From Paracyclopina nana (Eukaryota; Arthropoda; Copepoda; Cyclopoida; Cyclopettidae), in NCBI GenBank assembly GCA_019096065.1, contig JAGUCH010000004.1, positions 4,092,001 through 4,156,000 on the forward strand: DNA of 64,000 nt, read 5' to 3'. The position numbers and the translations under genes are program-made. The notes under the pieces were generated by a model that did no database searches, was not told the origin of the DNA, and worked only from the letters and a program-made list of their open reading frames with translations. This document shows, piece by piece, positions 10,901 through 58,440 of this stretch; position 1 is the first letter of the stretch, and every line of letters starts with the position of its first letter.

Positions 10901-13900
10901 AGATGTTGGCAAATAGAAAGGCACACAGCTAGTACGCGAAACCGTCAAAGTTGGCAAACTTACTTGGCGATCCATTAGCCAGAAAAAGATGGCAACTCCA
11001 GCCAGATAAATGACATGGGATAGCGCCTTGGCCTTCTCGTCTATCACCTCGTCCAATCCGAAATAATCGTACTGAAAATATCATAGAAGTAGTTGTGCGC
11101 AGTGTCGCTGCAAGAATACTAAGTCCTTGAGAGAACTGCGGATGACTGTGAAATAGTTTTCTACGTTTTAATGAAACTTACGAAGTTTTCAATAAAGAAC
11201 GAGTGTAAACGGTGAATGCTGGAACGTAACTGATTTGTTCTATTTCAGCTGTCGAGTGCGAGGGGAGGGAAACACAAATAAGCGGGAATATTCAAATATA
11301 TGTACAGTGCGAGAAAAACCTAAACATTCCCCGCTGGCGGCGGAACGGCGCCATCTTCGTCTTCGAGCAGGCCTTCTGCTTCGGCCATGTCACAATCGTC
11401 GTCCTCTCCTTCTTCTCTTTTCAGCAAATCCTCGCCTATCGGTGCTGTCAACCTTGGGCCCGCGTTCGCCCCCGGGGGCGGTGGAATGGGGGTTGCCAAG
11501 CGCAATGGAGGTTGCGAGACCTGAACTTGCGCTTGTTGCGGTACGGGCTGCAGCAATAGAGGCTGCATGGGCGGCGGCATCAACGCTGCGTCTGGCGGAG
11601 GGATCTCCACTTTAAGAGGGGCAGACAGGGCTATTTGTTGAGCCAGTAGGGCGTTGACAGCCGTGGGAGGAGGTGCTGTGCCATCGTCGACCTTCAGAAG
11701 CACTTCTTCAAAAGGCAAAACTTTCCTTTTAGCTGCTTCGACGTCGGATGAGGGGGCGGAATCAAAATCCGAGCCAGAAGGAGTGGTGGTGGGGCCCGAG
11801 GTCAGTGAGGGTTCGGACCCGGGCTCGAGCGAGGTCGAGGACGCAGACGATGACGTCATAGTGGCCGTGGCAGCTGAGTGACGTGGTGGGGGCCTCCAAG
11901 AATCATTAGAGGCCACTTCCATCGAGGCTGATGACGATGATGGGGAGACGAGGTCGACCACTGAGGTCGAGGGCATCAACCCGGAAGTTTTCCGAAGGTG
12001 AGAGACGAAGTTTGCTTCCCCCGTTCTAATCTCCCATCTCCTGTCTCGACGAACAAAGTCATTACTGGTTTCAAAGAATTCCTTCACTGCTATATGCGGA
12101 TTTTTGTTCAAAACGCTGTTTAAAGCAGTTAACGGAACTAGAACAACTTTGTCGCTGGAAATCGTGCTAGCCAGGCCAGGGGGGTCAGTTCTCGGGTCCC
12201 TAAACGTGATCGTTTGCGGGAAATTGGCTATCATTTCATCCCCCTTTTGTTTCGAACTCGTTTTTGACCTCCGTTTCTCAGTTTGTGGAGGTCTTATGGA
12301 AGAGGGAGGGGCACCTAATTGTTCTCTAATCAAGTCCTCAAGGCCAAGTTTCTCCCTTTGAAGCTCATTATGATTTTTCAGGGCAACTCTGCGGGTCTCA
12401 TCCGTTTGCATCGATCGATGGATTGGGTAGGGGTCAGACGAGCCAAAAAGTTTAATGGACTCGTCATAGATATGACCCAGTTCTCCATAAACGTGGATCG
12501 CGTCCTTTACGTTGCCCCTACTTAGATATAGTAATCGCAGACTGTCTAACTTTACCCAGTCTAACCGTTTTTTCAGGTGATCGAGCGGTATCCTTGACAC
12601 GTGGCCTTCCTGGGCTTTGGATCCCAGGATTCGGTCTCGGGGGTTCAGCAGAACCTCGGCAATTCCGCTGCCACGAGTTTTCAAGTCCCCGTACATCGTG
12701 GGCTTGTTGAAGCTGAACCGGTAATTTCGTTTTCGATTCATGGAGGTGGACGATTGATGAGCCATCTTGTTTTCTAGACGAGAAGTTTTCGAAAATCGAA
12801 GGTTTGAGGACGTGGACGTGGTCTCGATGAGATTTGTGAACACAATGGGGATCGAACCTGGTCCCACGTGAGCTATTTATAGTGTTCAGCCGGCTCCGAG
12901 AAGTGTCTCAGTAAGTCCGCGTGCAATGAGGTTTGTCTACGTCATTGGTTTTCTGTCCACCGTTTTCTGATCGGCCTCTAATTCGTACTTTGGGACTTAG
13001 CGAATTTTTGGCTGTTTTCCGCGAAGAAGTTTTCCGTGCAAGTTCTTTGTTTACGGGTGATCGCTGCGCGATTCGCCGTTCGGCTTTCCCCGCAACTTGC
13101 GCTGTGCGACGAAAACTTACGTCAGTTACGATTTTCCGCGGGACAGTTTTTAGTGCTGCTTCCCCGCATCTAGCAGACTATTAAGTTCATTCCCCGCGTT
13201 TAAAGTATATTGAGCGGAATTAATTGACGAATAGAGTATACGTCAGGTTTTGCAGGTTTTATTTTATACTTTTTAGTTTTACTTTGGTCCTGAGCGATCA
13301 GGACTTCGCATTTTCGAACTAATCCGTCTTTGTCTGGGATGAGTTTTGTTATTCTACCCCACTTCCAGTCATAGCGAGGTGCAACTTGCCAAGTCTTTTT
13401 TGCATCCGGAGACTGCATTATGAGGCAAAGTTCACCCAGGTTTGGATTGTCTCTAAATTTGGTCCATTTAGGGAACTTTTTCAGGTCATCTACTATGGCA
13501 GTTGTCCATTGTTGCCAGTAAGTATCGATGATGTCACGTATGTTCAAGTAAAGGTTCGTAAACCTGTTTTCATCTTTTACTTCTAGGACACTATTGTCAA
13601 AGTTTAAACCGGCTTTTATCAAGTCATTTATGCATAAAATGCCTTCGATTTCGTCTGTTTCAATTGGATTGACAGGTCTATTGTTTATCAAGTTTATTAT
13701 CATTTCAGAAGCTGTCAATAGTTCATCATGGGAGAATTCATAGCTTTCTAGACATGGAAGTCTAGCTTTTGCTAAGCCCACCATTCGTTCAGCGAGTCCA
13801 TTGTTTTGAGGACTGTAAACAGGTGAGAATTCCCAGTTTTCTATATTTAAGGTATTTTGTACAGTGGACATGTCAGGTATTAACAGTTTTCGAGCGCAAC

Positions 13901-16900
13901 AAAATTGGGCTGCGTTATCAGATCTGACATTTTTCGGGGTCCTTCGTTTGCTGCAGAACCTTTGTAGAGCAGTTATAATATGTTCTGTTGCCATGCTTTC
14001 CGTGATTTCCATGTGAAAAGCGTGAGTTTGCTGGCAAACTATGATTAGCAGATAGTACTTGTGGATTGGTCGTCCAATTTTTACTTTGACTGGGCCTGCA
14101 AAGTCAATCGAGATGGATTCGAAAAGTTTTAAAGTTTCAAGTTTTGAATCCGGAAGCGGAGCCATATGTTGACTTTGGTAAGGTTTTCCTTTTGTCAAGT
14201 TGCATATTAGGCAGTGCCTGATCACGTTTTTTGTAAGTACTCGTAGCCCTTTTATTTGGAAGAAGCGGTTGACTTCCATTATTGTCTCTTTTAGAGGTGC
14301 ATGATTGACTTCATGTACGTTTTGCACTAAGAGTTTCGTTAGATGACAGTCTTTGTCAAGTAAGATAGGTCTCTTTTGGAATACAGACAAGGCTGCGAAG
14401 TCTTCTACTCGTGATTCCCCGCGTACGATGCCGTTTGCATCTAGCTTGGCATTGAAGCTGGCGAGTTCTGCCTTTAGGTTAGAACTTTCACGAGAAAAAG
14501 CTGCTGTTTGGGCTTCCTTTATTAGAAAAACCAGGGCAGAGCGGAGTTTTTGAGGTAATGGACGCTTAGCCTTTAGGTGAAAGCTTTCCAGTTTTTTGCG
14601 AGTGTCTCCAGTGAAATCTGGACTTTTCAAGCGCCTTGCGCAAAGTCTGAATTTTCCGTTTTCCAGAGTCGAGACTCGTTTTAACAGTTTGCTAAGGTCT
14701 TCGAAGTGGGTTTTCAAATACGTTTCTGTGAAAATAATCGGACGTTTTGAAACATGTTTTATTAAGTCTTTTGGCTGCGTTTCAGGCCATGATGCATCTA
14801 ATTTGAATAGAGCTCGTATATAGTCAAAAGACATGAACGGGGTGTAATTTTTGAGTTTTAGATGACTGAAGAGACAGATTCGTGCGAATGAGTTCCTCAT
14901 TTCGTTTTGATCTTCTTCAGGCATGTCATCAAAGTTTTCTTCATCGAAGTCATAATCCGGATTTTCTAGGTTATTACCTTTGAACCAGAAGTTTTGCTGA
15001 CTGATGAATTCGTCAAGTGTCAACGAGCGAGTGCCAAGGTCAGCAGGATTTTTATTAGTCCTTACGTAGTGCCATTGACTTTTTTCAGTTGTTTCTCTTA
15101 TTAGTGCAAGTCTCGTAGCGATGAATTGTTCAAGCCGTCTGCTTGTGAACTTAATCCATTGCAAAGTGCACTGTGAATCGAGATAGTAATGAATGTTTTC
15201 CTTGGGCACCTCGTAATTGACCAGTTTCAAGTTTTTAACTACGTTTGGAACTATTTGGGCCGCACAAACTGCTCCCATTAGTTCAGCTTTTGGAATGGAT
15301 CTCCCTGAAAATGAGATCAGCTTCTTTTTAGCTACAATAAGATGAGCTTTTATGAGCTCGTTTTCATCGTCAGTTTTGTAAAAAGTTCTAATATAAACCG
15401 CTACGCAGTAAGCTTTTCTAGATGCATCACAGAAAGCGTGTATTTCGCGTTTTCTAATCGATTCCGGATTGACAGATATATAACGAGGTAGAGTGATTTC
15501 GTTTATTCTGCATCCGTCATTGACATAGTTTTGAAAAGCTTTAAGGATTGGCTCGATTCGTTCGTCTTTTTCTTTATAGTCTACGAGCTTGTCATCCCAG
15601 CCAAGTTTTAAAGTGTCATTCAAGCCCCAGACTTCTTGGGTTATAAGGCGTCCTTTCAATGTGAATGGGGCCAATAAGTCTTGGGGGTCAAAGATTTGAG
15701 CCACTACTGATGTGATGTATCGTCTGGTCACGATTTTTAAGTCATCATCAGTGAGTTTTGTTTTCAAAGGTTGAAAGCTAATGGTGTCATCGCTCGAGAT
15801 CCATTTGATGCCAAGGGCTTTGACGTCTGGGGTTTTCGATTTTAAGTCAAACGTGGGATGCCAGTCTGAACTTTCAATTTGTGACATGAAGTCCTTGTCA
15901 TTACTGACCCACTTTTTAAAGACCATTCTCGATTTTGCATGGACGTTTTTGACATCATTGTAAACAGCGAGTGCATCGCTAGTTTTATCGCAGCTGAACA
16001 AAATATCGTCCATGTAAAGGCATTCATTGAACACGTATTCGGTCAATGGATGCAAGTTGCCTTCTTTTGAGATCTCTTTCATAGTGTAGAGAGCAGCGTA
16101 AGGCGAGGCTGCATTTCCAAAGACCCAGGACTCAAATTGATAAGCTTGTCCTCTATGAATCAGTCTATGGAATTTCTTGTCTTTTTCACTAAGGTGGACG
16201 TTTAAAAACATCTTTTCAGCGTCAGCTATATAACCTTTTAGTCCCATCCGGAAGCGCATCCAGATTGACCATATATCGCCTTGAAGTTTTTGGCCAGTCA
16301 TAACTTGTGAGTTTAAAGAGACTTTGTTTTTGCCGAAAGGACGGGCTGCATCCATGCAAACTCGAACTTTCATAGTAAGTCTGTCAAGTTTGACGACCAT
16401 GACACGTGGAATATAGAAGCCAATGAGCTTGTCTTCGTCATCGCGAAGAAGTCTAAGAGCTCCGTGTTTTACCATGTCTTCTATTGCCTTGTCCACTTGT
16501 TTCATGTTTTCAGGACCCAATTTGTCCTCTTGCTTCTTTTCGAAGGTGTAGACCTGATAATAGTTATTAGGCAGAGGAGGTGGATCAGGCCATGAGTACC
16601 AAGGCACATCCATTTCCTTGTTGCCTTTGGCATTAGTGTGGATGCTGCCTTTGATGATGTCTCTGGCTTTGATTTCGTCTGCAGTCAAGTATTCGTTACT
16701 TTCAATTAGTTTCAGGCCTTGGCTGTCATCATCGAAAAGTGCGTACATGACCTCTTTCAATTCTGGGCACTCGTTTTGCACAATTTCGTGAGTTAGTAGT
16801 GTGGCACTTGAATTTTTCTTTGAATCCGGATTTGAATAAGTCAGCGTATTGCCAAAAACAGTTTCTCTGACTAAGGGCGAGTTTTCCATTCCGGACGAGA

Positions 16901-19900
16901 TATCTTTAAAACTGGTATGCAAAGTTGGATAGTTGATGCCAAGGAGGATTTCAACAGGTCCATTATGCAGTTTTGGAAAGTCAATTGGTTTCAAAAAGTC
17001 AAATTGTCTTTTAAGTTTTTCATAGTTTGGCAATTTGATTAGTTTGTTGATGCCATCAGACGTGTAAGCTTGGATGTCAAAGTTTTGCTTTGTCTTAAAG
17101 ACTGGCCTGATATTGACATTGCATCGATAGCTTTTCATGTCCTGGACTTTGTCATTAATAGTTGATACGGCATAGTTAACTTTTTGCCCTTGAAGGTTTA
17201 AAGCTTTATGTAAACTGGTGCTGATGAAGGTATTGCTCGATGCTTCATCCAGTACCATGTTAGTTTTCACTTGCTTGTCGCCATTAGTAACAATGACAGG
17301 AACTACTCTAAAACACTTGTTTGTGGTCAATTTAGGTAGATCTAACTGTCTTTTTATTTCAATCATTTGTAAGGCGACTGCTTCAGGCATTTTAGTTGCT
17401 ATGTTATCGCTACGCTGGGTTCGCTGCTGTCTAAAAAACTGTTTCGTTCAAGCAGCGTGGCTAGCGTGGTCTCAATTTTGTCAAGCTTCTTTTCAAGGTT
17501 TTTATTCATTGACTCTTTTTGCCGATTGTCAAAGTGCTTGTGCATGATGTTATGGTGTGGGCCATTGCAAATTTTGCATTTTGGGGCCTTGCAAGTATTT
17601 CGCCTGTGTTTTGATGTGAGGCAGCGCATGCAGACGCCTTTTTCAATGCATTTTTCGTACTTGTCTTTGGCTGCCAATTTGTAGAAGACTCTGCACTTTG
17701 GCAGCGTGTGGTTGTCTTTATTACAAACTGGGCAGTTTGACAAGGTTTCATCTCGTGTAGCAGTAGCTAAGCAAGTCTCTGAAAAGTCAGACGAATAGTC
17801 AGATTCGACTTCAGTGTCTGAGTCAGAGTTGACTAGCAAAGTGGGCTCTGCTTTCTTTTTCGATTTTGTGCCCGTGTTTTCAGTTTTTAAAGTCTTTTCG
17901 TAAGCATTGAGTCGATTGAGTGACATGTGCCACTCCATGAATTGCAAAACTGACGTTATGCTTTTTTCCAGGTCCTTGGATTCAATGTAGGTCTCATAAG
18001 CCATTTTTGAGGTCTCTTTCCATTGAATACCGAAGAAGATGGACTCGATGCCAAGTTCCGGATTGCATTTTCGCCTGACGCCTTCGTCCTTATAGTGTTT
18101 TCGAAGATCATAGATGACGTCCTTATATTCAATGAGTAAGTCTTTATTCGTATGATCGAGTGGGCGAAGTCCGGACAGTTTATTTAACAAATAACCTTTT
18201 CTGCCTTTTTGGTCAGCGAATAAAACATCGAGACGTTCCAAAGCATTGGCCAAGTTCTCCAGATTGAGAGGTTTGCAGTCTTTGACCTCAGTCAAAGCTT
18301 CACCTTCAACGCTGTCCCCCAGTATCATGAGTTTGTTTGCTGGGGAGATTGTGGTATTTTTGATGACTTTCAAGAAGAACCTGTCTTTGAAGTCCTGATA
18401 ATCACCCATGTTTCCGGAGAACTTGAGTTTGAAGCTGTCCGTGTCCTTGGGTAGTTTTTCTCTCTTTGGAATGAAAATTTGGCTCATTTTGAAGGCCCTT
18501 TTGTAGAGGTCTGACCATTCTGTGATCGGGTCTTTTTCAGTTTTTCTAAGGAAAGCATTACGTTCCGTTTTGACAGTTATGAACTCTTCATCTTCCTCTT
18601 CAAAAGGTGAAGGTGATCGATGTCTGGAACTTCTTCCTCGATATGAGTTTTCAGGCCTGGCATTGTTATTGCCACTGCAATTGTCATTGCCATTGCCATG
18701 AGTACTTGGGTTGGGGCCTTTTATTTGTGAAATTGGCCAGTTTTCATTATTCTGGGGTTTTGGGGTTAGCTCTAGCTTTGGAGCTTTCATATTTTGTTTC
18801 AGAATCGTGTTTTCCAGTTCTTCGAAAGCTCTCTTTTCGAAACTTTTCATGTCCTTTTCGTTTGGATTGGACACTTCGTGTTCTTTTTGAACTTGTTTCG
18901 GTGGAGCTGGGGTTGACGTCGGGTTTGGAATCGAAGTAGTTGCCGGTTGAGGCAGCTTTAGTTTCCGGATTAGTGCGCTAGATCCACTTCTGAACTGAGT
19001 GATGTGGCCTTGATAGCTGCTAATCTGTCTAGGTTCCAGTTTTGCATGCTTGAAGGCTTCTTTGGCCTCCTGAGCCTTCAGTGCAATTTTGTTTTCTAGC
19101 TCTGATAGCAGTTCAGTGCGCGATTTGAATAAGTCCGGATTCGGATCTTTTTCATAGTTTTCAATCGTCTTCTTGAGGTCTGCTATGAGCTGCTTGAATT
19201 CCTCATAATTTTCGCTTGCTTTGGCGTTTTCCGGGGTAGAAGTGTCAAAGCTTCCAGGTTTTTGGATAGTCGATGATGATTTGTCGATGCTCATATGCAA
19301 TGATTCATCTTTTTCATCGCTTCTAAGCTTTTCAGGTTTTTCAAGCAGTTCTTCCATAGTTTTGTCCCCCATGTCTGGTAATTTTGACAAGCTGACATTG
19401 TTCCAGCTACAGACATAAGAGGATTCCGCTAAGGAGACTTGTGACTCGTCCGGATGAAGTTTCTCATACTCGGCCTGGTAGACTTTGAACTTTGCAATCC
19501 AAGCTCTCCTCCGAATCATCAGTTTTTGCAGTTCCTTGTCCAATTCAATAGCTTTTGAGTCTCTCATTTCCCCGTCCTCATAGTCTCCATATGGCATTTG
19601 GAAGACAGCATTGATGCTATCCTGTAGGACTGTGAGTTTGGGTCTGAGAGTTTTCAATTCCTTTATTTTTGACTTTACATTGGCCTTCATAGTCTCAATT
19701 GGGATTTGGTACCAGTCCTCGAAGACTTTGAACAGAGCTCGAAGCTCATTTTCAATGTCACTGATAGCCGAAGTCCAATTGGCTCCGGACTCGTTTTCAT
19801 CCGATGAGTGCGAAGTGCTGTTCAAGACTTTTTCCGCCATTTTACTCGTGAAATGAACAAGGTTTTAACACAAGCAAGGTTTTTATTTTCGTATAGACAC

Positions 19901-22900
19901 GAATTAACTGTAGAGAGGAAGTTTTGAGTGACAAGTAGTCAATAGTTTTACAGATATATAGATAGAAGTTGACAATCCTTTGAGTTTTGAGGATTGTCTG
20001 GGTTGGGTTCACTGTTAGAAAGAAGAAGTTTTGATAGGAAAGTTTTGTTTAGAAAGGAAGTTTTCGAAGAAAAAATGACGCTGTTGGAGGTCTGTTGCCA
20101 CGGGATTGGGATATTGCCGTGGGATGTCTCTCCTCTATGGGTCATATGCCAGATGGAAGCTCAGGTTTGATGATGCTTTTCGAGATCTGTTGCCGCGATG
20201 CGGGATTTCACTCGTCTATGGATCAACAAAGTCAAGGCTGCCACGTGGTTTGGTTTTGAGCTTTCGCTATAAACGGGATTTTCACGCCGCCAAAGGCAGG
20301 GGTTGCTGTTGCCGTCTATAGGATTGCTGTTGGCTTGAGCCAAACGGGATTTCCAACGCCGCTTTTTATTTAAAGCAGGGGTTTTCTGTTGCCGTCTAGT
20401 TTTCAGCCCCAAGAGCTACGGCATTCAATATTTCGAACCGGCGGTTAACAGGGCTTAGGCAAGTGCCTGGAAACGTTGGGCGCCATGTGCGCAGTGTCGC
20501 TGCAAGAATACTAAGTCCTTGAGAGAACTGCGGATGACTGTGAAATAGTTTTCTACGTTTTAATGAAACTTACGAAGTTTTCAATAAAGAACGAGTGTAA
20601 ACGGTGAATGCTGGAACGTAACTGATTTGTTCTATTTCAGCTGTCGAGTGCGAGGGGAGGGAAACACAAATAAGCGGGAATATTCAAATATATGTACAGT
20701 GCGAGAAAAACCTAAACAGTAGTAAACTAATGGAGCAAAGTTGCGCACATCTCAACGGCAGCATTTTAAGCAACTTCTTCCTTCCCGCCGCAGCAGAAGC
20801 AGGCAGAAGCCACCAAAAGCAAACGCCAAGAGAGAATTGATTATAAGGGGCCAAGTTGGCCAAAGTTTCCTTCTAGCTGCTCCTTGGTATGGTGGGAAGC
20901 TTTAAAAAGAATTTTCATCAGCTCGGCCGGCTCTTTTTCTGCTGATACCTCTTTGGCCGGAGCAAATTGCAATTAACGGGTGAAGTGAAAATGCTCACGT
21001 TGAAAATGTTGACCGAGCTCTCCCTGGAAAGCCTGCCCATGATGACGAAGCCGTAGAAGAGCAAGCAGAAGACTGTGGTGACAATCTTGAGCCAGTGATG
21101 GATCCTGCAACGACGAGAGATGGATAGGTGCGCGCGGTGTCCAAGCATGGCATGTTTGCTTTCCCCTAATGTCATGTTGACACGAAAGATACATTGTGTA
21201 CCGCCATGAGCCCAAGTAAAAGTTACGACGACGGTGAAACACGAGGCTGTGCAATATGGACTCACCGAAGGAACATAAAGATGACCATCATGGCCAGGGC
21301 ACATCTGTAGGTGTAGTTCTGAAAATGGAATTTTCGGCAGCCATACAGCAAATTTGGTATTTTTTTAAATGAAAAATGCCAATACCTTGGGAGACTCCAT
21401 TAAGCATTTGGCAGTTGCCTGAAATCACATCAAATAAATCCATTAGAAAGCCTTTACTTTTACGGCAATAAATAGTATGTTGCTATTCATCAAGAAAATA
21501 ACATGGCAGGCAACATATGTAATATGCCAGAAAGCAAAAAAAAAGTAGGAAAAAGTCCCAAATCTAGCAGGCTTAAGTCAGATGGGATCATGGCAATACA
21601 TTGTGGGGCTCAATTTGAAATTAGGGCTTTCTTTATGGGGAAGAAATAAGTATACGAACCACATCTAAAACTGCTGTGGTGACAAAGAGCGCGGCAACAA
21701 TGAAGAAGATGGCTGTTCTTGCCACGAGGCTGGTGTTAATCTTCTTGGAGGCCGAGTAAAAGAATCTCAAGACTCGGTGGTCCGGAATGGCGATGTTATC
21801 TGACTCATAGTGCGGATCAATGATTTGTTCCCAAATGTAGGAGACCCAGAGGCACGGCATCAGCAGGGCCAGGAATGCAAACAAGACTGTGTATTCAGTC
21901 CACAGAGTCACATGCGGCCTTTAAAACAGCCAAAAGGACAATTTTAAGAGAGCGACAGTTTTCCCTGGGTAAACATGTCGTTTTCACGCTTTTGCAAATG
22001 GCTCCTTTTGCACTGAATATGCTGCTATACTTTTAGCGTTGAAAAATTACACGAGACACTACAATAATGAAAGTATACATTGCTCATAGTGCAAGGACTA
22101 GCTGAAAACCAATTAAGAATATCTAGGGTAAAATAGCTGATGGGGAGATCATGTTTTAGAAATACTAGAAGCCAACTTGGCTCAAAGGGGAAAAAGCTAC
22201 ATCACGCATAGCTAATACAAGGAGAAGTGGATTTTTAGTATTCTGTTTGGTGGTGAATTAAGGATTAAGGTGGCTTGCTTTTGTTGTAGAGCTTATTTTA
22301 CTCACCCTTTCTCAGTGAGGAGTAATATGATGCCCATTGCATTGAGGATGAGGAAGCTGGCCAAGATGTAGAACTTGAACAGGAGATCTTCTTCCCTCAA
22401 GTAAGGCCCTTCCCAGCTCTTGTCCTTGAACCAAAGGAGCAAAGGGCTAATTTCCTCAGGATGAAGCCATTGACTGAAAAAGTAGTGGCGGTAGGAGTAA
22501 AGTTTTTGTTCCCTTGCCATATAGCTAGTGGTTCGCCTCCTCAAGGTTGTTAAAGATGTCACCAACACACTTGGTCACAATCAGTTTCAGCCAACGCAAG
22601 CTAAAGCCTCGCAAAATATGGAAACCCACCCCAAAAAAATGGACCCTGCGCAAATTTTTTCCCAAGTCCCCAAAATTATTGTAAACAAACTTTTGACGAA
22701 TTTTTCATGCGTAAAGTACGAAAATCTTACTCGTATTTGCGGAGCGGCAAATTCTCAATCTCATCTCTCATGAATTCGCCGGCAGAATTCAAAAGTCTCT
22801 GAAAGTTTTTAACGCTCGTATCCATCAAGACAGAATGGCGGCGAGGCTTTCCGGTGGAGGCCGAGGATCTCCTTTGTTGCTGCAGCTCATGGAGGCCATT

Positions 22901-25900
22901 ATCTGCTTCCGGTCCCCCAGCCTCGGCCTCGACACTTAGAGAGGCCATATTTCGTCTGGGCTAAAATTGGAAAATTCGCCTCAGTGACCGCGCACACATT
23001 TTTGCGGAGCTCACTATTATGGTCACAAGGGGCCTTTAAGCTTGCATTAGGAGTTCACTTAGCGGAAAGAAGTACTTATGCGGGAGGCCAAGTCCTTAAA
23101 ATTGATAGGCAACGATTTATGGAGGCTTTCATAGCAGATTCAATCAAGTTTGAAGCTTTTAAAAAATAATTGGCTCACTTTTGGATATAGACTTTAATAT
23201 ACAATCTGCGCTATTCATTCATTCAACGGTTTGAAAACTGTTACTTTCCTCTTGAGGCTTCAAAAAACAGAAAGTTTCCCTTTAGGGCAAAAAATAAGAA
23301 GTGTCCTCAAAGTGGAAAGTTTTCCTCTGATTAATTCTGTTAAATGTACCGCTCTTGACAACTTTAAAAAGAAATGTGATCTTAATTGGGATAGTTGTAC
23401 AATTTAACCTCTACTCGATTACTAAGGAAAGTTAAAAAAAAGTATGCTTTGATGTAAGATAACTCCTTTTAAGGTTATTTTATAAAAATGCCCTCACAAA
23501 GATTTCTGTCCACTTAGAAATCGAAGATGAGTCTCAGTTCGATATCGTGGGATAATTTGTAAAAAAAAAATTAAGTTTGCAGAAGGGATTAAAAGCTTAC
23601 GAGACAATCAAGGCATGGCACAGCTCCAAAATTAATTTACAACTCAATGACGCTTAATTTTCAGTTTGACGTCAGCAAAATCAATTAGCGTTTCGTTCCT
23701 TTTCAAGAGGAGTGCTTTTTCAATAAAAAGGACAGGCAGCTTGGTTTTCGGCTTGCTTTGCATACTCCCACTTGTGTGTGGTAATATATTGGCATACTTC
23801 CCCTCTGAAAGCCTAAGGGACTAACTTAGTTAAGGCTGGTAAGAGCAGATAAGGCTGGAGCTCAATTTACTTTGCCTATGGGCAAATCTGTAGGGCGGTG
23901 TCAATTAGCAGCCAGTTCTGCTGCCCTATGCATCTTTTAATCACACGAGTCAACAAAAAACTTACCGTTTCAGCACCTAGCTTGGAGAGCCTTTGCAGTT
24001 TGACCTCCTGGGGCCAAATTAGAAAAGTGGAGATGCCATAATTGGAGAGAACTTCATCATGAGCGACGTCCGAAGCAGGCACAGGGTCGCAGGGAAATGC
24101 ATCATGTAGGTGAGCTTTTGTGGCATGAGTTATATGAACTGCCCTGAAATATGGTATGAAAATGACTGCTTCTCCCTGAAAATATTAGGTAACTCTGTGC
24201 TATTTGCAGAGTGATACCAAGCAAGCAAAAAAGCTTCAGTGGATATGTACAAATATGCAGATATACACAGTAGTGCTACGTATATAGGGCTTCCTATATA
24301 CAGTAGACGACCTCCTTTTGTGGGGCTTTGACAAAATGGGATTTGCGGAGATAGAAATGCAGCAGCAGCTATCCAACTTCAAAGCAGATACAAATCATGA
24401 ATCCATTATAACCCTTATTTTAGCTACCTAACATAGTGAGCTACTTCCACAGTGGAGTGAGTGCATTGCACTGCTTTCCCCCTGTGTGTTGTTAAATGTC
24501 TGCATAGAAAGCAAACGAGCCTGAAGATAATCATGTGCAAATGAGAACTTCCAAATTTGTTTTGGTCTGCTCATTAACAACATGAAAGAGCTTTTATACA
24601 CCCTTATCAGGGGACGCAAACTTCAATCAAAGCGATAAATTAGATTTCGAAACTTCATTAAAGCAACCAAGTATTGCAGCATACTATAAGCTTGCAAATG
24701 GTTTGAAGCTCATTAATGCCGCATGCTACGTACGTATCAGAGTTACCTGGCTTTTCTTGGAAAAAGCGCACCCACATAAATTTACTTATCGAGTGGAGCC
24801 ACATATACGCACACTCGTGGATTTATAAATAATTCATGCTGTAGTATAGCAAGCTAGCAGGTGAAATCTGTTTGTTCAATTTTGGGTTTTCTTCTTACCC
24901 CGCTTTGCCTGTGGCCTCCATTCGGTTGGCAATGGTGACGTCCTTGGACCAGATGTCAAACTGCCACTTCCGGACACCAATGAGGCCAGAAAAGATGCAG
25001 CCAGAGTGAATACCTATTCTCATGTTGACACAAACATTGTGCTCGTCCCTGAAAGACATGAAATCACATAAGTAGCTATGCCGGCATATTCAAAAGTGAT
25101 CATCAGTGCATTTAGTTTTCTTGAGAGCTTTCAAAATTCGCCAGCTTTCAAGCAACAGCCAATCCTCTTAGCTGGATTGAGAGCAAATATTTTTTAGGAA
25201 AACATACTCCCAAGATGGCACAGGTTTCTTCTGGAGCTTGGATACCATACACTAAGGCATGTAGACACATGATGGCAAAGAGTAAGCTGGTCCCACGAGG
25301 GGGGTCAAAAAACCAATTGCCCAGAGAGTTGCTCTCGAGATACCCAAAAACCATTAATAGATAATTAAAAAATGGCTCTAAGTTGGTTTTGCTGATGGCT
25401 TTCTATGGATTATGTTCATGGTGGGGCCAGATAAGATTCGATAATACAACATTATGTAGTAGGTCGAGATATACTACTGTGACTTATCAAGCCACTACTC
25501 GTATCTAGGCTACGTCAAGCGGGGACGGGCCTGGAGGCTAGCAGAGGTCAGTCTTTGGGCCGCAGACAACACGTGTCAATGCGGTGAATTTATTTCCTTT
25601 TACTGATGATCACACTATACTACTCGTCATACTACCGCGCGCCCGAGGCGAGCGCGCGCAGCGAGCGGTCGACCCGTAGGCCGACACGCTCCCTGCTACA
25701 TCACCCCACGCTAGAAGGTTACTGTGTCCTCGCAGTGACGGGTTGAGTCAGGTCTAGCAGGGAGCCCCGAGGGGGACCCTCCATGGCGGGAGCGCTGGGC
25801 TGGGTCCCATTCGCGTCAACCGCGCGTGCCTGGGGAAGTGTCTGCTGCAGGACCCCGTATAGATCCGTGTATTGCTGGTGAATCGTACGGATCTGGGCCT

Positions 25901-31900: not shown

Positions 31901-34900
31901 ATGGCGCAACAAGACATTGGCCCCACTGTGGTTTTACCCCATATGTAGACGGCATGGACGTTGATTGCGCGACTGTCATTTTCATTAAGTGTCCCCCCTG
32001 CCAACTTGATCATTCGTCCTCGAATGCGGAGCGAGTTGGCACTATGTAGCTGGTCGATGTCGTGGGCCTTCATGAAGGGCCCTGACAGGTTGACGTCCAT
32101 GGTGAGGTTAGCTATGACAGCTGGTCGAAATAGGAAAGGTTGCGGGTAGGTGCCAATGTGAAGCATCAATGGCTTTGGTACCTCGCCGAGTATTTCTAGA
32201 GATTGATTTTGGCCCGCTGTGTTGACAGTTTCTCCTATCAGGGCGGCAAGTTGAGCTTTTGTGAACCCTAATTTGGTTGCAAGCGTGGAGGAGATGACCG
32301 ACCTCCACGTATTACCGCTGTCGATGAGTGCTCTTGATTTGACGTTGTTGAGGCGTATTGGAACTTCAGATACGTATGATTTATTAATGTTGGAAATATG
32401 GGCGAGGAATGATCGGGCCTTGTCAGATGTGAACGTGTTTGGTGAGGTGATGGATGGTTCCATTGATGGCCGGTCCCTTAGGACCGGCTGGCTCCGTTTT
32501 TTGGCGCCTCCCAGGTGTAGGCGTCCACGGGGGCACTGGCCACATGTGCGATGGCCGCGTTGCGATATTTATTATATTCTTGGGGCGAGACCGGCGGGGC
32601 GGCGTGGTATGGATTGTTATTGCCACGCCCGCGGCCGCCACGTCCCCGGCCCCGGAATCCTCCTCGCCCTCGTTGGCTGTTTGGGCGTTGGTTGGTGCAT
32701 TGAGCCTTGAGATGGCCGTAGCCGCCACAACCGTAGCATCTCATGTTAGCCTTGTCACCTAGAGCGGCGATGATCTTGGCGACGTCGGGTTGGTCTGGGG
32801 TGCCCTCTTGGGTGATTTGCATGATGCCCCCTTGCCCCAGGGGGTTGGCCTTGCCGCCGGCTAATCCTACCAGGCACTCCTTGGAGGATGCATTGGAAGC
32901 GGCCTCCGTCAGCGTATCATATTTGCTGGCGATTACCAGCCAGCGTGTCTGGGGGTCCCGCAGATTGATAGTGAACTTCCTAATGACCTCTGGATCCTTG
33001 TCGACCTTGGCGCACCGCGGTGCATCATTGGCGAAAGCCCTCAGGTAGAGCGACTTGAGGCGTGCCGCCCAGGTCATTACGGATTCATGGGGACCCTGCG
33101 CGGCGGTGTCGTATGCCACCCTGGCGGCCTCTTGGGCCGACTCGTCCACAAAGGCCTTCTCAAGGTCGTCGAGGTAGTGCTTGTAGGCGTACGTATTATC
33201 GCCCGACTTCTTGTCGATGGAGTTGATCATTTCCAACGCAAGGCCGACAATAGATGCCTTGATCAGCATCTTCTTGGTGACTTCAGGCTCTATCGAGTCC
33301 TCGAATTGGGACTCGATGTGCATCCGCCATTGCTGGAAGGAGCGGCTGTCTGTCTCGCGGAGCAGTTGGAGTTGTTGAGGCCGACGCTGAACAGCAGCGT
33401 TGGCTCTCATTTGGCGGTTGACCTCAAGGGCCACTGCAGCAGCTATATCTTGTGGTGGCTGGGCCTATGCGTGGGGGGAGAAGAGTGAGCTTTCGGTCTT
33501 TTGTGAGAATGTGCTATTATAATTACCATGGTGGTCTACGATTCAACAATGAAGTGAGTTGTGATTACTGTTAACTGGGGGAAAGCCCGAAAGGAACTGA
33601 TGGCTATTCCCCACCAGCGCGGTCTTATATATCCGCCAACGCGCTCGCAGGTCACTGCAGAGGGTTGTGGCGTGACATTTATTGATTGTTTACTGACCAC
33701 CGAAAATGCCACGCTGGTGTCACATTTCTCATTATCGTTTATTTGACCGTGACCCGCACGTGGTGACCAGCTTTAGCTTCAGTGGAATCCTGATAGCTCG
33801 CAGCTGTTGATCCGCTACCGGTCATGTGGTCACCACGCGGTCATGAGCTTCTATCCTCCTTCTCCACCCCTTTATTTGTACATTGTCATGGGGTGGCCGG
33901 CTCCAGCATTCACTGAAATCCAAATGATTTGCGACTGGTGTTAGCAGCCCCGACCATTCGGCCATTGTCCCCCCATAACAATTACTCTTTGATCACCTGC
34001 AGTTGGAATTTGCCCGTGAGTTGACCGGCCCTAGCTTAACTAGGATCTACAATGATTTGCACCAGCGTTGGCCGGGCTGACCATTCGGCCGCTGGCTCTC
34101 ACGGACAATCCCTTTGATTGTTATTTGATAGCTTTTTGATTGTTTGCAGCTGCAGCTATTGCAGAGTGATCTTTGCCCTTTTGCTCTGGTCTGAGCTTCA
34201 CATTTTTACATTTTTAGCCACCACTATTTTACTTTTTATAGTCAACTGCCTTTTATGCTCTCAGCATTAATCTCTCTTTACTTCGTGGCTTGCACGTAGG
34301 TTCATGTTCTGGCAGTTGACTTGAGCATGATATTATTTGAGCAGCACTATTATCCCTTTTGTACTTATTGTGTATACTTAGCACTTATAGCTTCCGGCAG
34401 GATGTACTTAATGGGTAGTGGAGTGATGAAATCACAGGTCCTACCGACCGCGCCATCTGTAGTAGGTCGAGATATACTACTGTGACTTATCAAGCCACTA
34501 CTCGTATCTAGGCTACGTCAAGCGGGGACGGGCCTGGAGGCTAGCAGAGGTCAGTCTTTGGGCCGCAGACAACACGTGTCAATGCGGTGAATTTATTTCC
34601 TTTTACTGATGATCACACTATACTACTCGTCATACTACCGCGCGCCCGAGGCGAGCGCGCGCAGCGAGCGGTCGACCCGTAGGCCGACACGCTCCCTGCT
34701 ACAATTAGGATATTTGTCAGCAATAAGAAAGATGGCACAAAAATGCGTGTGCTTTTGGCGGAGAATAACATAGAATGGTATATTGGATATATTGCTAATA
34801 CGCAGCAGGATTGACTTAATTAGGCTTCTTACATTGGTAAAAGCCAAGATAGTACATATTTACCTGACATCCCTGATGAGCTCGATCATTTTGAGCCCCA

Positions 34901-44490: not shown

Positions 44491-44494
44491 TTGG

Positions 44495-45077
44495 TGTCTT
44501 AGACCTCGCCGGATGCCCGGTGATCCTCAGGATGAAGATCCGGAAAGGCTAGACCTCTGAATAGCCTGGCTATGAAAACCAAGGCTCAACTGGTCCAGAA
44601 GGCCGTGCTACCGACTGGAACCCTGGTACAAGGAGGATCCACAAGAAGATCAACAGCCTGGCTGCCAATCAGCCTCAAGAGGACAACAAGATCAAAATAT
44701 ATGACCTCTAAATTGTCTAATCAGAGCAATAAACTCCAAAAAGACTAACCTAATAGTATTGTATGACAATAACTAAGACAACTAAAACATATCATATAGG
44801 AGCATTGCTCAACTAACTAAAATACACAAAATACTACATAAAACATGAAATAAAAGGTCCAAGCATTGCTTAGGACAATTACAAGTTACAATTGCATCTT
44901 ACACTAAATAAATGGACTGATTTCAGTCAATAATCACACTCAAAATCAAATCATGATGTTTCTTATTCAAATTCTTCAAGTACACTGGCAACTCTTACAA
45001 AAAGGATAATGGCTGCCGCTGAGGCGCGTCGCTGAGGGAAGCCGGGGAGAGCGCGAGTAGGAGGCGCGCCCACAACA
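44495..45077 (-). repeat. 3' LTR of element 3
   Basis: The second copy. Palindromes at 44561-44573, 44654-44664, 44800-44810 and 44861-44871. The purine run AAGGGGGGA (sense strand) a few bases before it is the likely polypurine tract. Confidence 0.93.
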
Positions 45078-45119
45078 AAGTCCCCCCTTGGAGACACACA
45101 AGGCCACCAATAAAGGCCT

Positions 45120-48100
45120 CTAAGGCCAGTGGCCGGCCACGACGAGTGCGTGGTTCTCCAAGACAAGCCTGGCTTCCTCGCCGCCTTCCTGGCTCACTCG
45201 CTCCACGTAGTTGGTCACACGAAGGTCGACACGGCCTTCGTCGCCCATGACTGGCTCGACTCGGAAGCCCTCGTGACGCAGCAGACCCCGAAGGTTGAGC
45301 ATGCTGCCGATTGTCGCCTCCTCAACTTGCACCACCCATGGCTTGGTGAAAGGTGCCAGGTGATGCTTGATGCCGTGGCCTAGCTCAAAGCATTTGCCGC
45401 ATCGATGGAGGACCCGGGTGCAGGTGAAGATGGTATGACCATCTTCACCGCAGAGTGGCAACGAGCACTTCAGCTTCTCCGAGCAATCACCCCTAAGGTG
45501 GTCAAAGCTGCCACACCTACCGCAGTAGTGAGGAGTGGTGCGGCCCAAGGTGGCCCGGTACAAGGCCATCAGCACGTGGCTCCAGTTGGCGCGGTGGGGA
45601 GGCTTCTTGGTGATGCCGACGAAGGCTCTAGCAAGGCTAGGCTCAATGCTGTGGAAATCCAGCTTGTAGCCTCTTCCTAGCTTCCAAAAATCGCGAGTTT
45701 CTTGGATGGAATTGATCCCGCGACTCTCGTTCGGCCTCAACATCATCCACTCGGCCTCGATCCCATCTTCAGTCTGCAGGCCACCCATCCATTCAACCTT
45801 GTTGAAAGGCCTGAGGTTGACCTCGTCCCTGGGCAGCTTCCCAGGTCCAGGCCTGCCCCTGATGCGGTCGGACAAAAAATGCGCGTGGCGCAGCACGTCG
45901 GTCTTGGGGTCATAACCGTGGCGTGCCAGCCCCGCAGAGGCTATCTTCAATGGCATGGCCAGGCTGAGGATCGTCTGCAGCCTCAGGTACTCCCACATGT
46001 CCTGGGTGTATTCCTCGGTGGGCACGCTGAAATCGACTCGCTCCTTATGAAAATGGAAGGTCGACTGCAACCGGGGGTCCATTGGAGGCGTGGGTGAGGA
46101 CTTCCCATTCTGGTGCACAATTGGCACCCTGGGTGCGCCCATCCTCGCTGACAAATACGTCAGATTGGACGAAATATTGCACGCCCAAGTGCCTTCTTGA
46201 GGGTATGCGACGAGGCCGTAGTTGTTGGTGTCGCATCGGCCGTTGACGTCCATGTTGAGGTATCTGAACCTCCGCTCATCCTGGATGTTGAACCCGTTGA
46301 CTCGAATCTTCGGGTTCTTGAGGGCGTCAAGGATCCGGCCAGGGATGCGTGGACCCAGATATTCGCGATCCTTGCCTCCGTAGCGACTCTGGATCAGCAG
46401 AATGGGTGCTCCAACAACTCCAAACGTCATGGACGTGAAGCAACCTTCGCGGGGCTTGCGGTCAGAAATGAGGCCGGCCTTTTGTAGAGCCTCCACGGTC
46501 CAACTTTGGACATGGCAAGACATGTAGCCTTTGTCTTCAGCCTTGCTGAAGAAGCCGCATTGATCCAGCTTGGACTGCACCGTGGCCCAGCCATCCTCGT
46601 CGTCCAAGACAATGAAGTCCTCAGCGGAGGCCGGTCGACTGAGCAGATCCAAGGGGCCTGGCCCGAGCTCGCAATCCTCAAGGGCTTGATGCAGAGGATA
46701 ATAGTCATAGCAATCCTGGCCGTCCATTCGCATCTGCCGATCTTCGTGCACAATGTGCTTGAGCTGATCAAAGCAGTACTCTTCTGTACAAGCTTCATGG
46801 ATCCTGGATCCCTCAAGCATGGCTTGGGCGGCCCGGCAGGGTGGGTCGGCTGACGGCTTGCCAGTGGCTGCGGCGGGGCGGATCAGGGGTGTGCCCGGTG
46901 CGGGCTCTTGCATCTCGAGGCCAAGTTGAGGCAGGTCGGCATAAGGGTCGTCCTGGACGTCGTCGTCTTGTCCCAGGTGGACGCACCTGGTCCAATATTC
47001 GACCATGCAAGCCGGCAGTTGCCCTCTCCTGGAGATGGCGCTGCCGTAGGAGGCCAAAACCGCGGCGACTCCGAGGTCGGTCTCGTCCTCGGCCAGAGCA
47101 GTGAGACGAGCTCCGTACAGCCTCCTGGCCAGCTCCTTCCTCTTCTGGAACAGCTGAAAGGCCTGGCCTCTAGCCTCGGGCGACAATCCGGTGGGGTTGA
47201 TCGGGTTCTTGCGGGGGTGAACCAGGTAGCACCCATCTCGATAAAGCTCGTAAGCGTCGTACAGCTTGGGGTGGAGAAGCTGCATCACCTTCACCGGTCT
47301 GAAACCCTTCATGAGCATGCTCAGCCTGATCACGTCCATCTTCTCGGCAACTGCGCAGGCATTAGCGCGTTCGGCATTGGAGCGGCCATCCTCTTCATGC
47401 TTGGGCCCGTAATCAAGGGAGCTCCCCAAGAACGATGTCTTCGGATCGCAGTAATGAAGCATCATAGTGGGCACCGCCATGACTCCCAAAATTTGGTCTT
47501 CGAAGAGAGCCTTGTCGCATCCGTGCAAGGCCTTGAGGTCATTGATGGCGAGGTCGACCACAACTTGCCGTTCGCGGTAAAAGGATCGAGGTGGCCCTGA
47601 AATGAACAATCCCAGCCTATTATATGTCTCATAAGAGCCGCCGTCGGCCTCTCTCAAAGTATGTCTAATCCCCGATTCCCCAGAGGGCTGGCGTGGACTC
47701 CTGGGCGGGGCAGAAGCTTCATCAGATGGCCAGCCTGGCGGGGTCACGAGGCTTGGCTCTTCAGGCTCCCGTTGTTGACCGGGATCGTCAGGTGATCGTG
47801 GGATGGGCGACAGAGAAATGTCCTGAAGCCCTGGGGCCTCATGAGGCTCTCCCGAGGCGATTGAGAGAGTGGGCGTAACTGCCCGTGGAGATGACTCCAT
47901 TCTTCTCCTCTGCCTAGCGGGGGAGAGTCCGGTGGCCTCGGTGGGTCTGGCTCTGGCCCGATCCTCAAGAATTTGCTCCCTGGCGGCGTCGAAGTCAAAG
48001 CGAGGTAGATCGGGGGCACTGGGCCCCACGAGGGACTCGTCCAGCAGAGCGAGGTCGTCTGGGTTGATCTCCAGCCCTTCCCACTCCATATCTTCCTTGC

Positions 48101-48743
48101 GCGCTCCGGCATGGCCGGGTTGCGTACTATCTAACTCAGGAGAGGCCACGCCCCCCCTATCACTACCGCTACTCATATTCCTAATACCTGTAGATACGGC
48201 CTGGCCGCGTAGGATGCTTTCATCCTCGTTTGAAGCTCCTGCTTCGACCTCGGCTCCGAGGAGACCCATAGGTGGGACCTCCTGCTCTTGGTTGGCAGAT
48301 TCCATCGGATTAAAGTTGAAAAACTCGAGAAAAATTATTTTGCGTCCTTCACGGGGAAAGTCAGCGTGCACAATGAAAGAGCTTGCTGAGCGGAAATGGT
48401 CGGCTGCAGTCAGCCGGTTCTCAGTTTTGCTTCGTGACGGACCTTCCATGCGCGCGCGCAGCCAACAGCTGCTTCCGCTGATTTCGCGGAAAAATTGAAC
48501 CGAAAAATATTGAAAACAGCGCAGCAAGGCTTGATTGCGCTGTCTGCTTTGATTTGTTGTCGTGCGCATTGTTGCTGCAGCTGATGCTGCGACGTCAATT
48601 TTTATGCTAAAAACTAAAAGAGCCTGGCTCTCAAAACTAATAAGGTGACACATAAAAGGAGCATGGCTCAAATTGGTGGTTCTATCATTAAAATCTTCTC
48701 TGACTAGATTGTGTGTTGGAGCCTGGCTCATAAAAGAGATCAT
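45120..48743 (-). CDS. Second ORF of element 3: large Gag-like zinc-knuckle protein of unknown function
   Basis: A 1207-codon ORF, or shorter if a later ATG is used. The first 150 or so codons look weakly protein-like and the ATG at about residue 148 (MESANQEQEVPPMG) is an alternative start. Residues about 150-400 are acidic and Pro/Ser-rich. A globular section (about 410-650) holds CDPKTSFLGS, KMDVIRLSMLMKG and KLYDAYELYRDG, which resemble the accessory ORF of element 1. A second globular section follows. Near residue 1074 come CGRCGSFDHLRGDC (CX2CX4HX4C), a CX4CX4HX4C variant and CGKCFELGHGIKHH. These are retroviral nucleocapsid-type knuckles, so RNA or DNA binding is likely. No signal peptide or membrane helix is visible, so this is not Env. 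I do not recognise the family. Confidence 0.75.
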   Translation of the reverse strand: MISFMSQAPTHNLVREDFNDRTTNLSHAPFMCHLISFESQALLVFSIKIDVAASAAATMRTTTNQSRQRNQALLRCFQYFSVQFFREISGSSCWLRARMEGPSRSKTENRLTAADHFRSASSFIVHADFPREGRKIIFLEFFNFNPMESANQEQEVPPMGLLGAEVEAGASNEDESILRGQAVSTGIRNMSSGSDRGGVASPELDSTQPGHAGARKEDMEWEGLEINPDDLALLDESLVGPSAPDLPRFDFDAAREQILEDRARARPTEATGLSPARQRRRMESSPRAVTPTLSIASGEPHEAPGLQDISLSPIPRSPDDPGQQREPEEPSLVTPPGWPSDEASAPPRSPRQPSGESGIRHTLREADGGSYETYNRLGLFISGPPRSFYRERQVVVDLAINDLKALHGCDKALFEDQILGVMAVPTMMLHYCDPKTSFLGSSLDYGPKHEEDGRSNAERANACAVAEKMDVIRLSMLMKGFRPVKVMQLLHPKLYDAYELYRDGCYLVHPRKNPINPTGLSPEARGQAFQLFQKRKELARRLYGARLTALAEDETDLGVAAVLASYGSAISRRGQLPACMVEYWTRCVHLGQDDDVQDDPYADLPQLGLEMQEPAPGTPLIRPAAATGKPSADPPCRAAQAMLEGSRIHEACTEEYCFDQLKHIVHEDRQMRMDGQDCYDYYPLHQALEDCELGPGPLDLLSRPASAEDFIVLDDEDGWATVQSKLDQCGFFSKAEDKGYMSCHVQSWTVEALQKAGLISDRKPREGCFTSMTFGVVGAPILLIQSRYGGKDREYLGPRIPGRILDALKNPKIRVNGFNIQDERRFRYLNMDVNGRCDTNNYGLVAYPQEGTWACNISSNLTYLSARMGAPRVPIVHQNGKSSPTPPMDPRLQSTFHFHKERVDFSVPTEEYTQDMWEYLRLQTILSLAMPLKIASAGLARHGYDPKTDVLRHAHFLSDRIRGRPGPGKLPRDEVNLRPFNKVEWMGGLQTEDGIEAEWMMLRPNESRGINSIQETRDFWKLGRGYKLDFHSIEPSLARAFVGITKKPPHRANWSHVLMALYRATLGRTTPHYCGRCGSFDHLRGDCSEKLKCSLPLCGEDGHTIFTCTRVLHRCGKCFELGHGIKHHLAPFTKPWVVQVEEATIGSMLNLRGLLRHEGFRVEPVMGDEGRVDLRVTNYVERVSQEGGEEARLVLENHALVVAGHWP
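48740..48743 (-). promoter_or_regulatory. ATGA stop/start overlap between gag-pol and the second ORF of element 3
   Basis: The gag-pol TGA (48742-48740) shares two bases with the first ATG of the downstream ORF (48743-48741). Such overlaps support termination-reinitiation in some viruses and non-LTR elements. Its use here is inferred. Palindromes with GAGCCAGGCTC-type sequence lie just downstream at 48719-48729 and 48659-48669. Confidence 0.5.
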
Positions 48744-57805: not shown

Positions 57806-57837
57806 CGACTATATCAGGGTTTAGGGGCCGGGTGTTG

Positions 57838-57855
57838 GCCCCACGTTGGGCGCCA
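57838..57855 (-). promoter_or_regulatory. Primer-binding site of element 3, tRNA-Lys(CUU)
   Basis: The sense strand TGGCGCCCAACGTGGGGC is complementary over 18 bases to the 3' end of animal tRNA-Lys(CUU), as I know that sequence. The gag ATG follows only about 30 bases downstream, so the leader is unusually short. Confidence 0.8.
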
Positions 57856-57857
57856 CT

Positions 57858-58440
57858 TGTCTTAGACCTCGCCGGATGCCCGGTGATCCTCAGGATGAAG
57901 ATCCGGAAAGGCTAGACCTCTGAATAGCCTGGCTATGAAAACCAAGGCTCAACTGGTCCAGAAGGCCGTGCTACCGACTGGAACCCTGGTACAAGGAGGA
58001 TCCACAAGAAGATCAACAGCCTGGCTGCCAATCAGCCTCAAGAGGACAACAAGATCAAAATATATGACCTCTAAATTGTCTAATCAGAGCAATAAACTCC
58101 AAAAAGACTAACCTAATAGTATTGTATGACAATAACTAAGACAACTAAAACATATCATATAGGAGCATTGCTCAACTAACTAAAATACACAAAATACTAC
58201 ATAAAACATGAAATAAAAGGTCCAAGCATTGCTTAGGACAATTACAAGTTACAATTGCATCTTACACTAAATAAATGGACTGATTTCAGTCAATAATCAC
58301 ACTCAAAATCAAATCATGATGTTTCTTATTCAAATTCTTCAAGTACACTGGCAACTCTTACAAAAAGGATAATGGCTGCCGCTGAGGCGCGTCGCTGAGG
58401 GAAGCCGGGGAGAGCGCGAGTAGGAGGCGCGCCCACAACA
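57858..58440 (-). repeat. 5' LTR of element 3
   Basis: A 583-bp repeat identical by eye to 44495-45077, bordered on the right by TTGG. It carries four short palindromes (loops CTG, CTG, ATT, ATT on the plus strand). Confidence 0.93.

Follow-up and report, generated by a model that had tools for sequence, protein, structure and literature searches.

We analysed a stretch of 64,000 nucleotides from the copepod Paracyclopina nana (contig JAGUCH010000004.1, positions 4,092,001 to 4,156,000; hereafter the window) and found that two of its elements with long terminal repeats (LTRs), the Bel/Pao elements E1 and E3, carry downstream of pol, in the position of an envelope gene (env), an open reading frame (ORF) for an accessory protein that is not recognised as an envelope protein. 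As judged from profile comparisons, the E1 and E3 versions very probably share one domain of ~120 residues by descent, and related ORFs recur behind many Bel/Pao pol genes of this genome. With the function included, the claim that many Bel/Pao elements of this genome have an env-position gene for a non-env accessory protein acting on the element's genomic RNA is tentative and falls somewhat short of an even chance. An earlier note on the window had described the two ORFs as an apparently homologous pair; both are present as it described them, 12765 being the ATG of a frame that occupies 11320-12867 on the minus strand in E1, and 45120-48743, likewise on the minus strand, being the frame in E3. 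The accessory ORFs and their parts are as follows:

11320..12867, minus strand: E1 accessory ORF, 515 aa from a GTG, conserved ATG at 12765; 75 matches in the genome
12367..12726, minus strand: shared domain in E1, residues ~48-167, from the profile alignment with the E3 type
11989..12231, minus strand: second conserved block of E1, residues ~213-293, conserved in the 40-ORF alignment and without an E3 counterpart
11947..11961, minus strand: VVDLV in the E1 accessory ORF, found with a home-made pattern
45120..48743, minus strand: E3 accessory ORF, 1207 aa, probable start at residue 147 (48305); 48 matches in the genome
47139..47531, minus strand: shared domain in E3, residues ~405-535, from the profile alignment with the E1 type
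45954..46646, minus strand: degenerate DEDD exonuclease-like region in E3, residues ~700-930 (bounds approximate), homologous to loci L113 and L114, D-x-E lost
45360..45524, minus strand: three Cys/His knuckles in E3, residues 1074-1128, with 12 invariant columns in eight of eight aligned members

The two window proteins are not linked by BLASTP in the shared domain (best E 0.13 elsewhere, E 6.9 at the second motif); the link emerges at the level of profiles. The first whole-profile comparison of E1 with E3 gave its best match on the motif region (E 0.051), a direct comparison with 19 balanced E1 members gave E 0.0077, and with 24 E3 domain sequences the match to E1 stays weak (E 0.014-0.044). 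An intermediate subfamily of 22 sequences, the L083 type, matches E3 with E 5e-25. Its match to E1 spans 114-116 columns with E 3.1e-4 to 4.4e-4, or has E 0.0015 when match columns alone are used, and a joint E3-type profile of 47 sequences matches E1 with E 3.3e-4 to 8.7e-4 at a score of 28.1. That score was reached in none of 150 column shuffles (at most 20.5) and in none of 36 comparisons with pol windows (at most 15.9), while the reversed profile scored 12.8 and the five E3 windows that do not cover the shared domain scored 10.3-14.3. Furthermore, the E1 hidden Markov model (HMM) matches the L083 ORF with E 8.5e-6 and 11.0 bits, compared with at most 7.4 bits in 3000 residue shuffles. The homology proposed earlier is therefore upheld for one domain, with E 0.0077 directly and 3e-4 to 1.5e-3 via the intermediate subfamily, and the profile-profile match is significant, with its best local alignment on the motif region that had been picked out by eye. 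The motifs named there occur in the given order in both ORFs; the first two of the three motif pairs are in register with the profile alignment, and the third is shifted by about three residues.

Several results weigh against common descent and were considered together. Compared directly, E1 and E3 match modestly (E 0.0077-0.051). L082 (0.3 bits), L085 (-2.3 bits) and L107 are not recognised by the E1 HMM, the best value of the E3-type HMM on E1 members is E 0.096, and when two divergent E1 ORFs were used as single queries against the genome, no E3 family member was found at a significant E value. Shuffles in blocks of 12 columns attained the real score once in 150 for the joint profile, twice in 150 for the L083 type and five times in 200 for E3 alone, which is partly expected because such blocks preserve whole motifs; caution stays nonetheless. 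These block shuffles, the empty BLASTP result in the shared domain and the modest direct E values are what an independent acquisition of the two ORFs, with a chance or convergent likeness of helical, charged segments, would have in its favour. We regard it as improbable, given that the L083-type subfamily aligns with both E1 and E3, that column shuffles, reversal and pol windows score far lower, and that both types occupy the same genomic place. An extension of the shared region to the second block of E1 (residues 205-300) was tried and rejected, no E3 match being found (E 0.49-0.7). Single-sequence AlphaFold models, which were helical with a pLDDT of 40.9 for the E1 domain and reached 30.9 for the E3 exonuclease-like region, were too poor and remained unused.

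Two architectures emerge from the sequences. The E3 type combines the shared domain with a degenerate DEDD exonuclease-like region and three zinc knuckles, and the E1 type combines it with the second conserved block and a Ser/Pro-rich, acidic tail; E1-type proteins have neither the exonuclease-like region nor the knuckles. Zinc knuckles in one lineage and an acidic, Pro-rich tail in the other had both been noticed before; the former are found in the E3 type only and the latter in E1. The E1-type alignment comprises 40 ORFs, each 340 aa or longer and each from a separate place in the genome (the duplicates L037 and L038, the broken or short L022-L026, L035, L036 and L057, and unfetched places were left out), which form six groups when linked above 60% identity, with a mean identity between groups of 30-53%. 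VVDLV, which we take to be a SUMO-interaction-like motif, belongs to a home-made pattern that is found in 28 of these 40 ORFs and in five of the six subfamilies. For the E3 ORF, which is conserved chiefly from residue ~150-370 onward among its 48 genome matches, translation probably starts at residue 147 (position 48305), since residue 151 is where the second-best match in the genome begins. Genome queries with divergent E3-type members gave 68, 47 and 49 matches.

The exonuclease-derived domain of E3 was missed in the earlier description. It was recognised by way of PF01612, which matches nine places in the genome, two of them in long frames that are also matched by the E3 profile:

L113, G000:C2:6661000-6663400: relative of the E3 accessory protein, D-x-E kept
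L114, G000:C4:2999000-3001500: relative of the E3 accessory protein, D-x-E kept

Over the exonuclease-like part the E3 profile matches L113 with E 1.4e-22 and L114 with E 2.8e-23, and over the knuckles it matches L113 with E 1.3e-16 and a second open frame of L114 with E 3.9e-18. In the PF01612 genome search L114 scored 27.7 and L113 25.3 bits; against the Pfam cut-off of 23.6 bits L114 passes (25.9) and L113 falls just short (23.0), while Pfam gave no PF01612 match for the E3 accessory ORF itself. These bridge sequences match the E3-type region with E 4.4e-19, and the latter matches four host PF01612 domains with E 0.0075 over 47 columns (score 25.8, compared with at most 16.3 for 11 pol windows). 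Of the 12 aligned sequences, L113 and L114 retain the catalytic D-x-E of motif I; the remaining 10, among them E3, have lost it. L113 and L114, taken here as open frames alone, may be less decayed exonuclease forms. PF00098 was matched in three of the eight aligned E3-type members and not in the E3 protein of the window, whereas the 12 Cys/His columns of the three knuckles are invariant in all eight.

With respect to an envelope function, no env family of Pfam was matched by the accessory ORFs of E1 and E3 or by any related member scanned. The test works, because the env of E2, a third LTR element in the same window, was recognised with PF24664 at E 6.4e-43; an env identity is accordingly disfavoured, and the earlier description of the proteins as non-env is borne out. 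Membrane helices were judged by 19-residue Kyte-Doolittle windows only. None of the 40 related E1-type ORFs reaches a hydrophobicity of 1.6 in such a window, the maximum in the E1 protein of the window being 1.19. The E3 protein of the window has one such peak, of 1.62, at residue 41, which precedes its conserved part, and 7 of 14 E3-type proteins (window ORF included) peak at 1.6-1.98, mostly in or near the exonuclease-like region. The predicted lack of a membrane helix, as claimed before for both proteins, thus appears well founded for E1 and less secure in the case of the E3 type.

The accessory gene is not special to the two elements that had drawn attention to it. Of the 150 Bel/Pao pols that were scored, at least 114 are followed by an accessory ORF on their own strand at a distance of 1.5-8 kb (21 E1-type, 93 E3-type); in the two controls, the opposite strand within 8 kb and the upstream side, the count was 2 of 150 each. 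The pols are the 150 scored Peptidase_A17 matches among 243 candidates, E1's own pol scoring below these, and each accessory locus is represented by one coordinate (52 E1-type and 111 E3-type, with fragments merged or dropped by hand); 31 of the 52 E1-type loci were not tied to these 150 pols. Six pols without a listed ORF were inspected directly, unveiling an E3-type ORF in five (L082, L083, L085, L107 and, in two pieces, L084). Since L084 and L107 are still counted among the 36 pols without a match, 114 is a lower bound. In the sixth, L106, no ORF of 120 aa was found within 3.5 kb downstream of pol.

L106 (G000:C2:12815300-12818800) has a Bel/Pao pol frame of 1529 aa and is seemingly without a third ORF; ~14 other unlinked pols have similar frame lengths of 1509-1596 aa, and L106 may belong with them to a lineage without the accessory gene. 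Many of the 150 scored among the 243 candidate Bel/Pao protease matches of this 92-Mb genome lie in intact frames of 1400-3100 aa, and its Bel/Pao population is apparently rich and young.

Selection and spacing were compared across these loci. The ratio dN/dS was 0.04-0.12 in the 13 finite of 14 E1-type pairs and 0.03 and 0.17 in the two finite of three E3-type pairs, rough values in that dS exceeds 1 in 7 of the 13 E1 pairs and in both E3 pairs. With ratios of 0.03-0.17 overall the protein is conserved, as had been proposed, and by this measure both types are kept by purifying selection. The conserved ATG of the E1 type lies 408-489 nt past the pol stop in 20 of 23 loci with flank; the outliers are L012 (31 nt), L030 (228 nt) and L017 (592 nt), where another frame was picked or the pol end has changed. 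In both window elements the distance is 434 nt, given an E3 start at residue 147.

The function that we tentatively favour is that of a genome-RNA factor. Because the gene starts ~430 nt past the pol stop, it would be expressed from a separate mRNA of its own, probably a spliced one. The protein may then act on the genomic RNA of the element, through binding, nuclear export, localisation or protection, and would work like CERV of the Caenorhabditis elegans element Cer1 and unlike an envelope protein. RNA binding is suggested because, in one branch, a protein under selection has both a dead RNase-like fold and knuckles; in the E3 type the dead nuclease fold and the knuckles could serve as RNA-binding surfaces. 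Because E1 keeps only the shared domain, this domain should carry the common function, possibly as a core, retained in E1, through which the protein oligomerises or binds partners. Against the proposal stands that the argument for RNA binding rests on E3, as E1 is without exonuclease-like region and knuckles, and that the gene is common rather than universal in the Bel/Pao elements of this genome, L106 being without it. A more specific history, which we consider rather doubtful, would have an ancestral Bel/Pao gene of this animal lineage encode a Rev- or CERV-like RNA factor in which a pseudo-exonuclease bearing zinc knuckles is joined to a helical core domain of a new kind, E1-like branches later shedding exonuclease and knuckles; the core domain would then be essential rather than the relic of an enzyme.

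Two other functions are live rivals. The protein could antagonise host silencing, either small-RNA or SUMO-linked, with the dead exonuclease binding or mimicking RNAs of the piRNA pathway and the E1 type acting via its SUMO-interaction-like motif. According to the available part of a report on rotifer elements (PMC5408684), the piRNA pathway includes two DEDD derivatives without catalytic activity, EXD1 and Maelstrom, the second of which also has a zinc motif. This fits such a role, as does an IDL-like motif in 28 of 40 E1 ORFs; we nevertheless hold it to be unlikely, as this motif is found in none of the eight members of one whole E1 subfamily and its pattern is home-made. It could also be a particle component, namely a second Gag-like protein that is packaged with the genome and brings its own nucleocapsid-like knuckles. 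The three knuckles in eight of eight E3 members, with a spacing close by eye to that of the knuckles in the gag frames, speak for this role, to which we likewise assign a low probability: E1 is without knuckles, neither accessory family matches DUF1759 or a gag family, and an exonuclease-like region would be unexpected in such a protein.

An active 3'-5' exonuclease that trims RNA or cDNA of the element has the intact D-x-E and PF01612 match of the homologous L113 and L114 on its side, together with the proposal, in the available text on rotifer ORF3s, that these process RNA 3' ends (PMC5408684). With D-x-E lost in 10 of 12 aligned sequences, E3 included, and no such region in E1, this activity is disfavoured for the E3 ORF and very improbable for the family. 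Still less credible is a diverged envelope protein serving entry, for which the short hydrophobic peaks in 7 of 14 E3-type proteins can be adduced: no env family was found in the members scanned while the E2 env was found at once, none of 40 E1 ORFs has a hydrophobic window of 1.6, and zinc knuckles, like a nuclease fold, are features of intracellular proteins.

The favoured genome-RNA factor was compared with known third genes. The ICTV profile gives Belpaoviridae gag, pol and env or env-like genes and a size of 4-10 kb (PMC8742986), and a Bel/Pao survey, in its available part, describes the third gene as env or env-like (PMC3118150). As far as these sources go, such env-like genes occupy the same genomic place as the accessory gene (PMC8742986, PMC3118150), which differs from them in that it matches no env family and shows no clear membrane helix, and E3 measures 13.9 kb against 4-10 kb. 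The closest likeness outside Bel/Pao is found in the rotifer LTR elements Vesta and Juno, whose non-env ORF3 encodes a DEDDy exonuclease: as in E3, it lies downstream of pol, has a DEDD exonuclease fold, which in E3 is predicted and degenerate, and occurs in more than one lineage, and spliced messages are typical for rotifer ORF3s, all according to the portion of the report at hand (PMC5408684). The same portion indicates that the rotifer ORF3 largely keeps its motif (DEDD to DEED), in contrast to the D-x-E lost here in 10 of 12 aligned sequences, and it names the lineages Vesta, Juno, TelKA and Mag and does not call them Bel/Pao (PMC5408684). Compared by description, E3 furthermore adds the upstream shared domain and three knuckles, and the E1 branch is without the exonuclease. 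Maelstrom and EXD1, also likened by description, have in common with the E3 type, in which the fold is predicted, a DEDD fold without catalysis and, in Maelstrom, a zinc motif, as far as the available text tells (PMC5408684), and differ in being host proteins.

CERV is the best-studied protein in this position. According to the accessible part of the source, this protein of the Gypsy/Ty3 element Cer1 is spliced, nuclear and needed for export of the genomic RNA, and has a G domain without catalytic residues (PMC10309623). By description it resembles the accessory protein in its env position and in being intracellular, which for the accessory protein we infer; it belongs to another element superfamily, its dead fold is a G domain and its homologues are, by that part of the source, confined to nematodes (PMC10309623). 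The function of CERV is known, that of the accessory protein is proposed here. A review, in the part available, also describes captured ORFs downstream of pol in retroelements (PMC6431247). A non-env third ORF as such is hence already known in other LTR elements, and the expectation of a new kind of retroelement component is not sustained in view of Vesta and Juno (PMC5408684) and CERV of Cer1 (PMC10309623), as far as the available text of both reports goes; the widespread Bel/Pao non-env gene appears to be new. No report of a non-env accessory gene in Bel/Pao was found in a search of titles and abstract openings, most subscription papers being outside its coverage. If the proposal is true, the Bel/Pao cycle includes a step that depends on a protein nobody has studied, encoded behind at least 114 of 150 pols. 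Exonuclease-derived third ORFs would also be known from a second setting, in which the catalytic residues are lost; this favours RNA binding over cutting, and the question of what rotifer-type ORF3s do would become testable.

Database searches with the accessory ORFs gave little. Pfam returned no match for E3 and one sub-threshold match for E1 (E 0.13), and the idea that the second E1 block resembles BEN domains was dropped as Pfam was empty. Protein-database searches with a single E1 or E3 ORF gave no match among the candidates scored. In PDB profile searches nothing below E 1.9 was returned for E1, and E3 had weak knuckle and other matches, of which the best had E 0.035. Phage sequences searched by tblastn with the E1 ORF yielded no match. 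A search with the E1 alignment found P0006, an environmental protein fragment of 211 aa (source lgn) that is 78% identical over 36% of the E1 ORF; judged by this match, an E1-type element or a close relative is present in other sequence data.

The window holds three LTR elements, all on the minus strand, each with an identical LTR pair, and owing to this identity within each element they are recent insertions:

11094-20718, minus strand: E1, Bel/Pao, 9,625 bp, separate gag and pol
25455-34703, minus strand: E2, Gypsy-type, identical LTRs
44495-58440, minus strand: E3, Bel/Pao, 13,946 bp, single gag-pol frame
11094..11326, minus strand: E1 3' LTR, 233 bp, identical to the 5' LTR
20486..20718, minus strand: E1 5' LTR, identical to the 3' LTR
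17399..19840, minus strand: E1 gag ORF, 813 aa; PF03564 DUF1759 E 1.8e-4, below cut-off
13200..17390, minus strand: E1 pol ORF, 1396 aa; PF05380 Peptidase_A17 E 2.2e-29, PF18701 DUF5641 E 3e-12, RVT_1 E 9.2e-9
44495..45077, minus strand: E3 3' LTR, 583 bp, identical to the 5' LTR
57858..58440, minus strand: E3 5' LTR, identical to the 3' LTR
48740..57805, minus strand: E3 gag-pol ORF, 3021 aa; PF05380 E 9.9e-35, PF03564 DUF1759 E 8.3e-11, PF18701 E 1.7e-9

The Bel/Pao pol domains PF05380 and PF18701 are above the Pfam cut-off in both E1 and E3, RVT_1 passes it in E1 and narrowly misses it in E3 (29.2 of 29.6), and rve is below it in both; the two pols are 26% identical over 1458 aligned columns. 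The LTR pairs are flanked outside by a 5-bp repeat, GTAGT, in E1 and a 4-bp repeat, TTGG, in E3 (flanks read by eye), and LTRs with short target-site repeats of 5 and 4 bp agree with Bel/Pao. By the ICTV range of 4-10 kb E1 (9,625 bp) fits and E3 (13,946 bp) exceeds it, and both depart from the ICTV gene set of gag, pol and sometimes env by their non-env third gene. The primer-binding sites of E1 (20486) and E3 (57858), which directly adjoin the inner side of the 5' LTRs on the minus strand, have TGGCGCCCAACGT in common; this sequence presumably resembles a tRNA-Lys site. The ICTV profile of Belpaoviridae gives tRNA-Arg or tRNA-Gly as primer (PMC8742986). In E2, the ORF at 26380-27696 (minus strand) encodes the Monjiviricetes-type fusion glycoprotein matched by PF24664 (E 6.4e-43), an overlapping ORF at 25719-26390 (minus strand) encodes its C-terminal piece with a strong membrane helix, and gag matches PNMA (E 2.3e-8).

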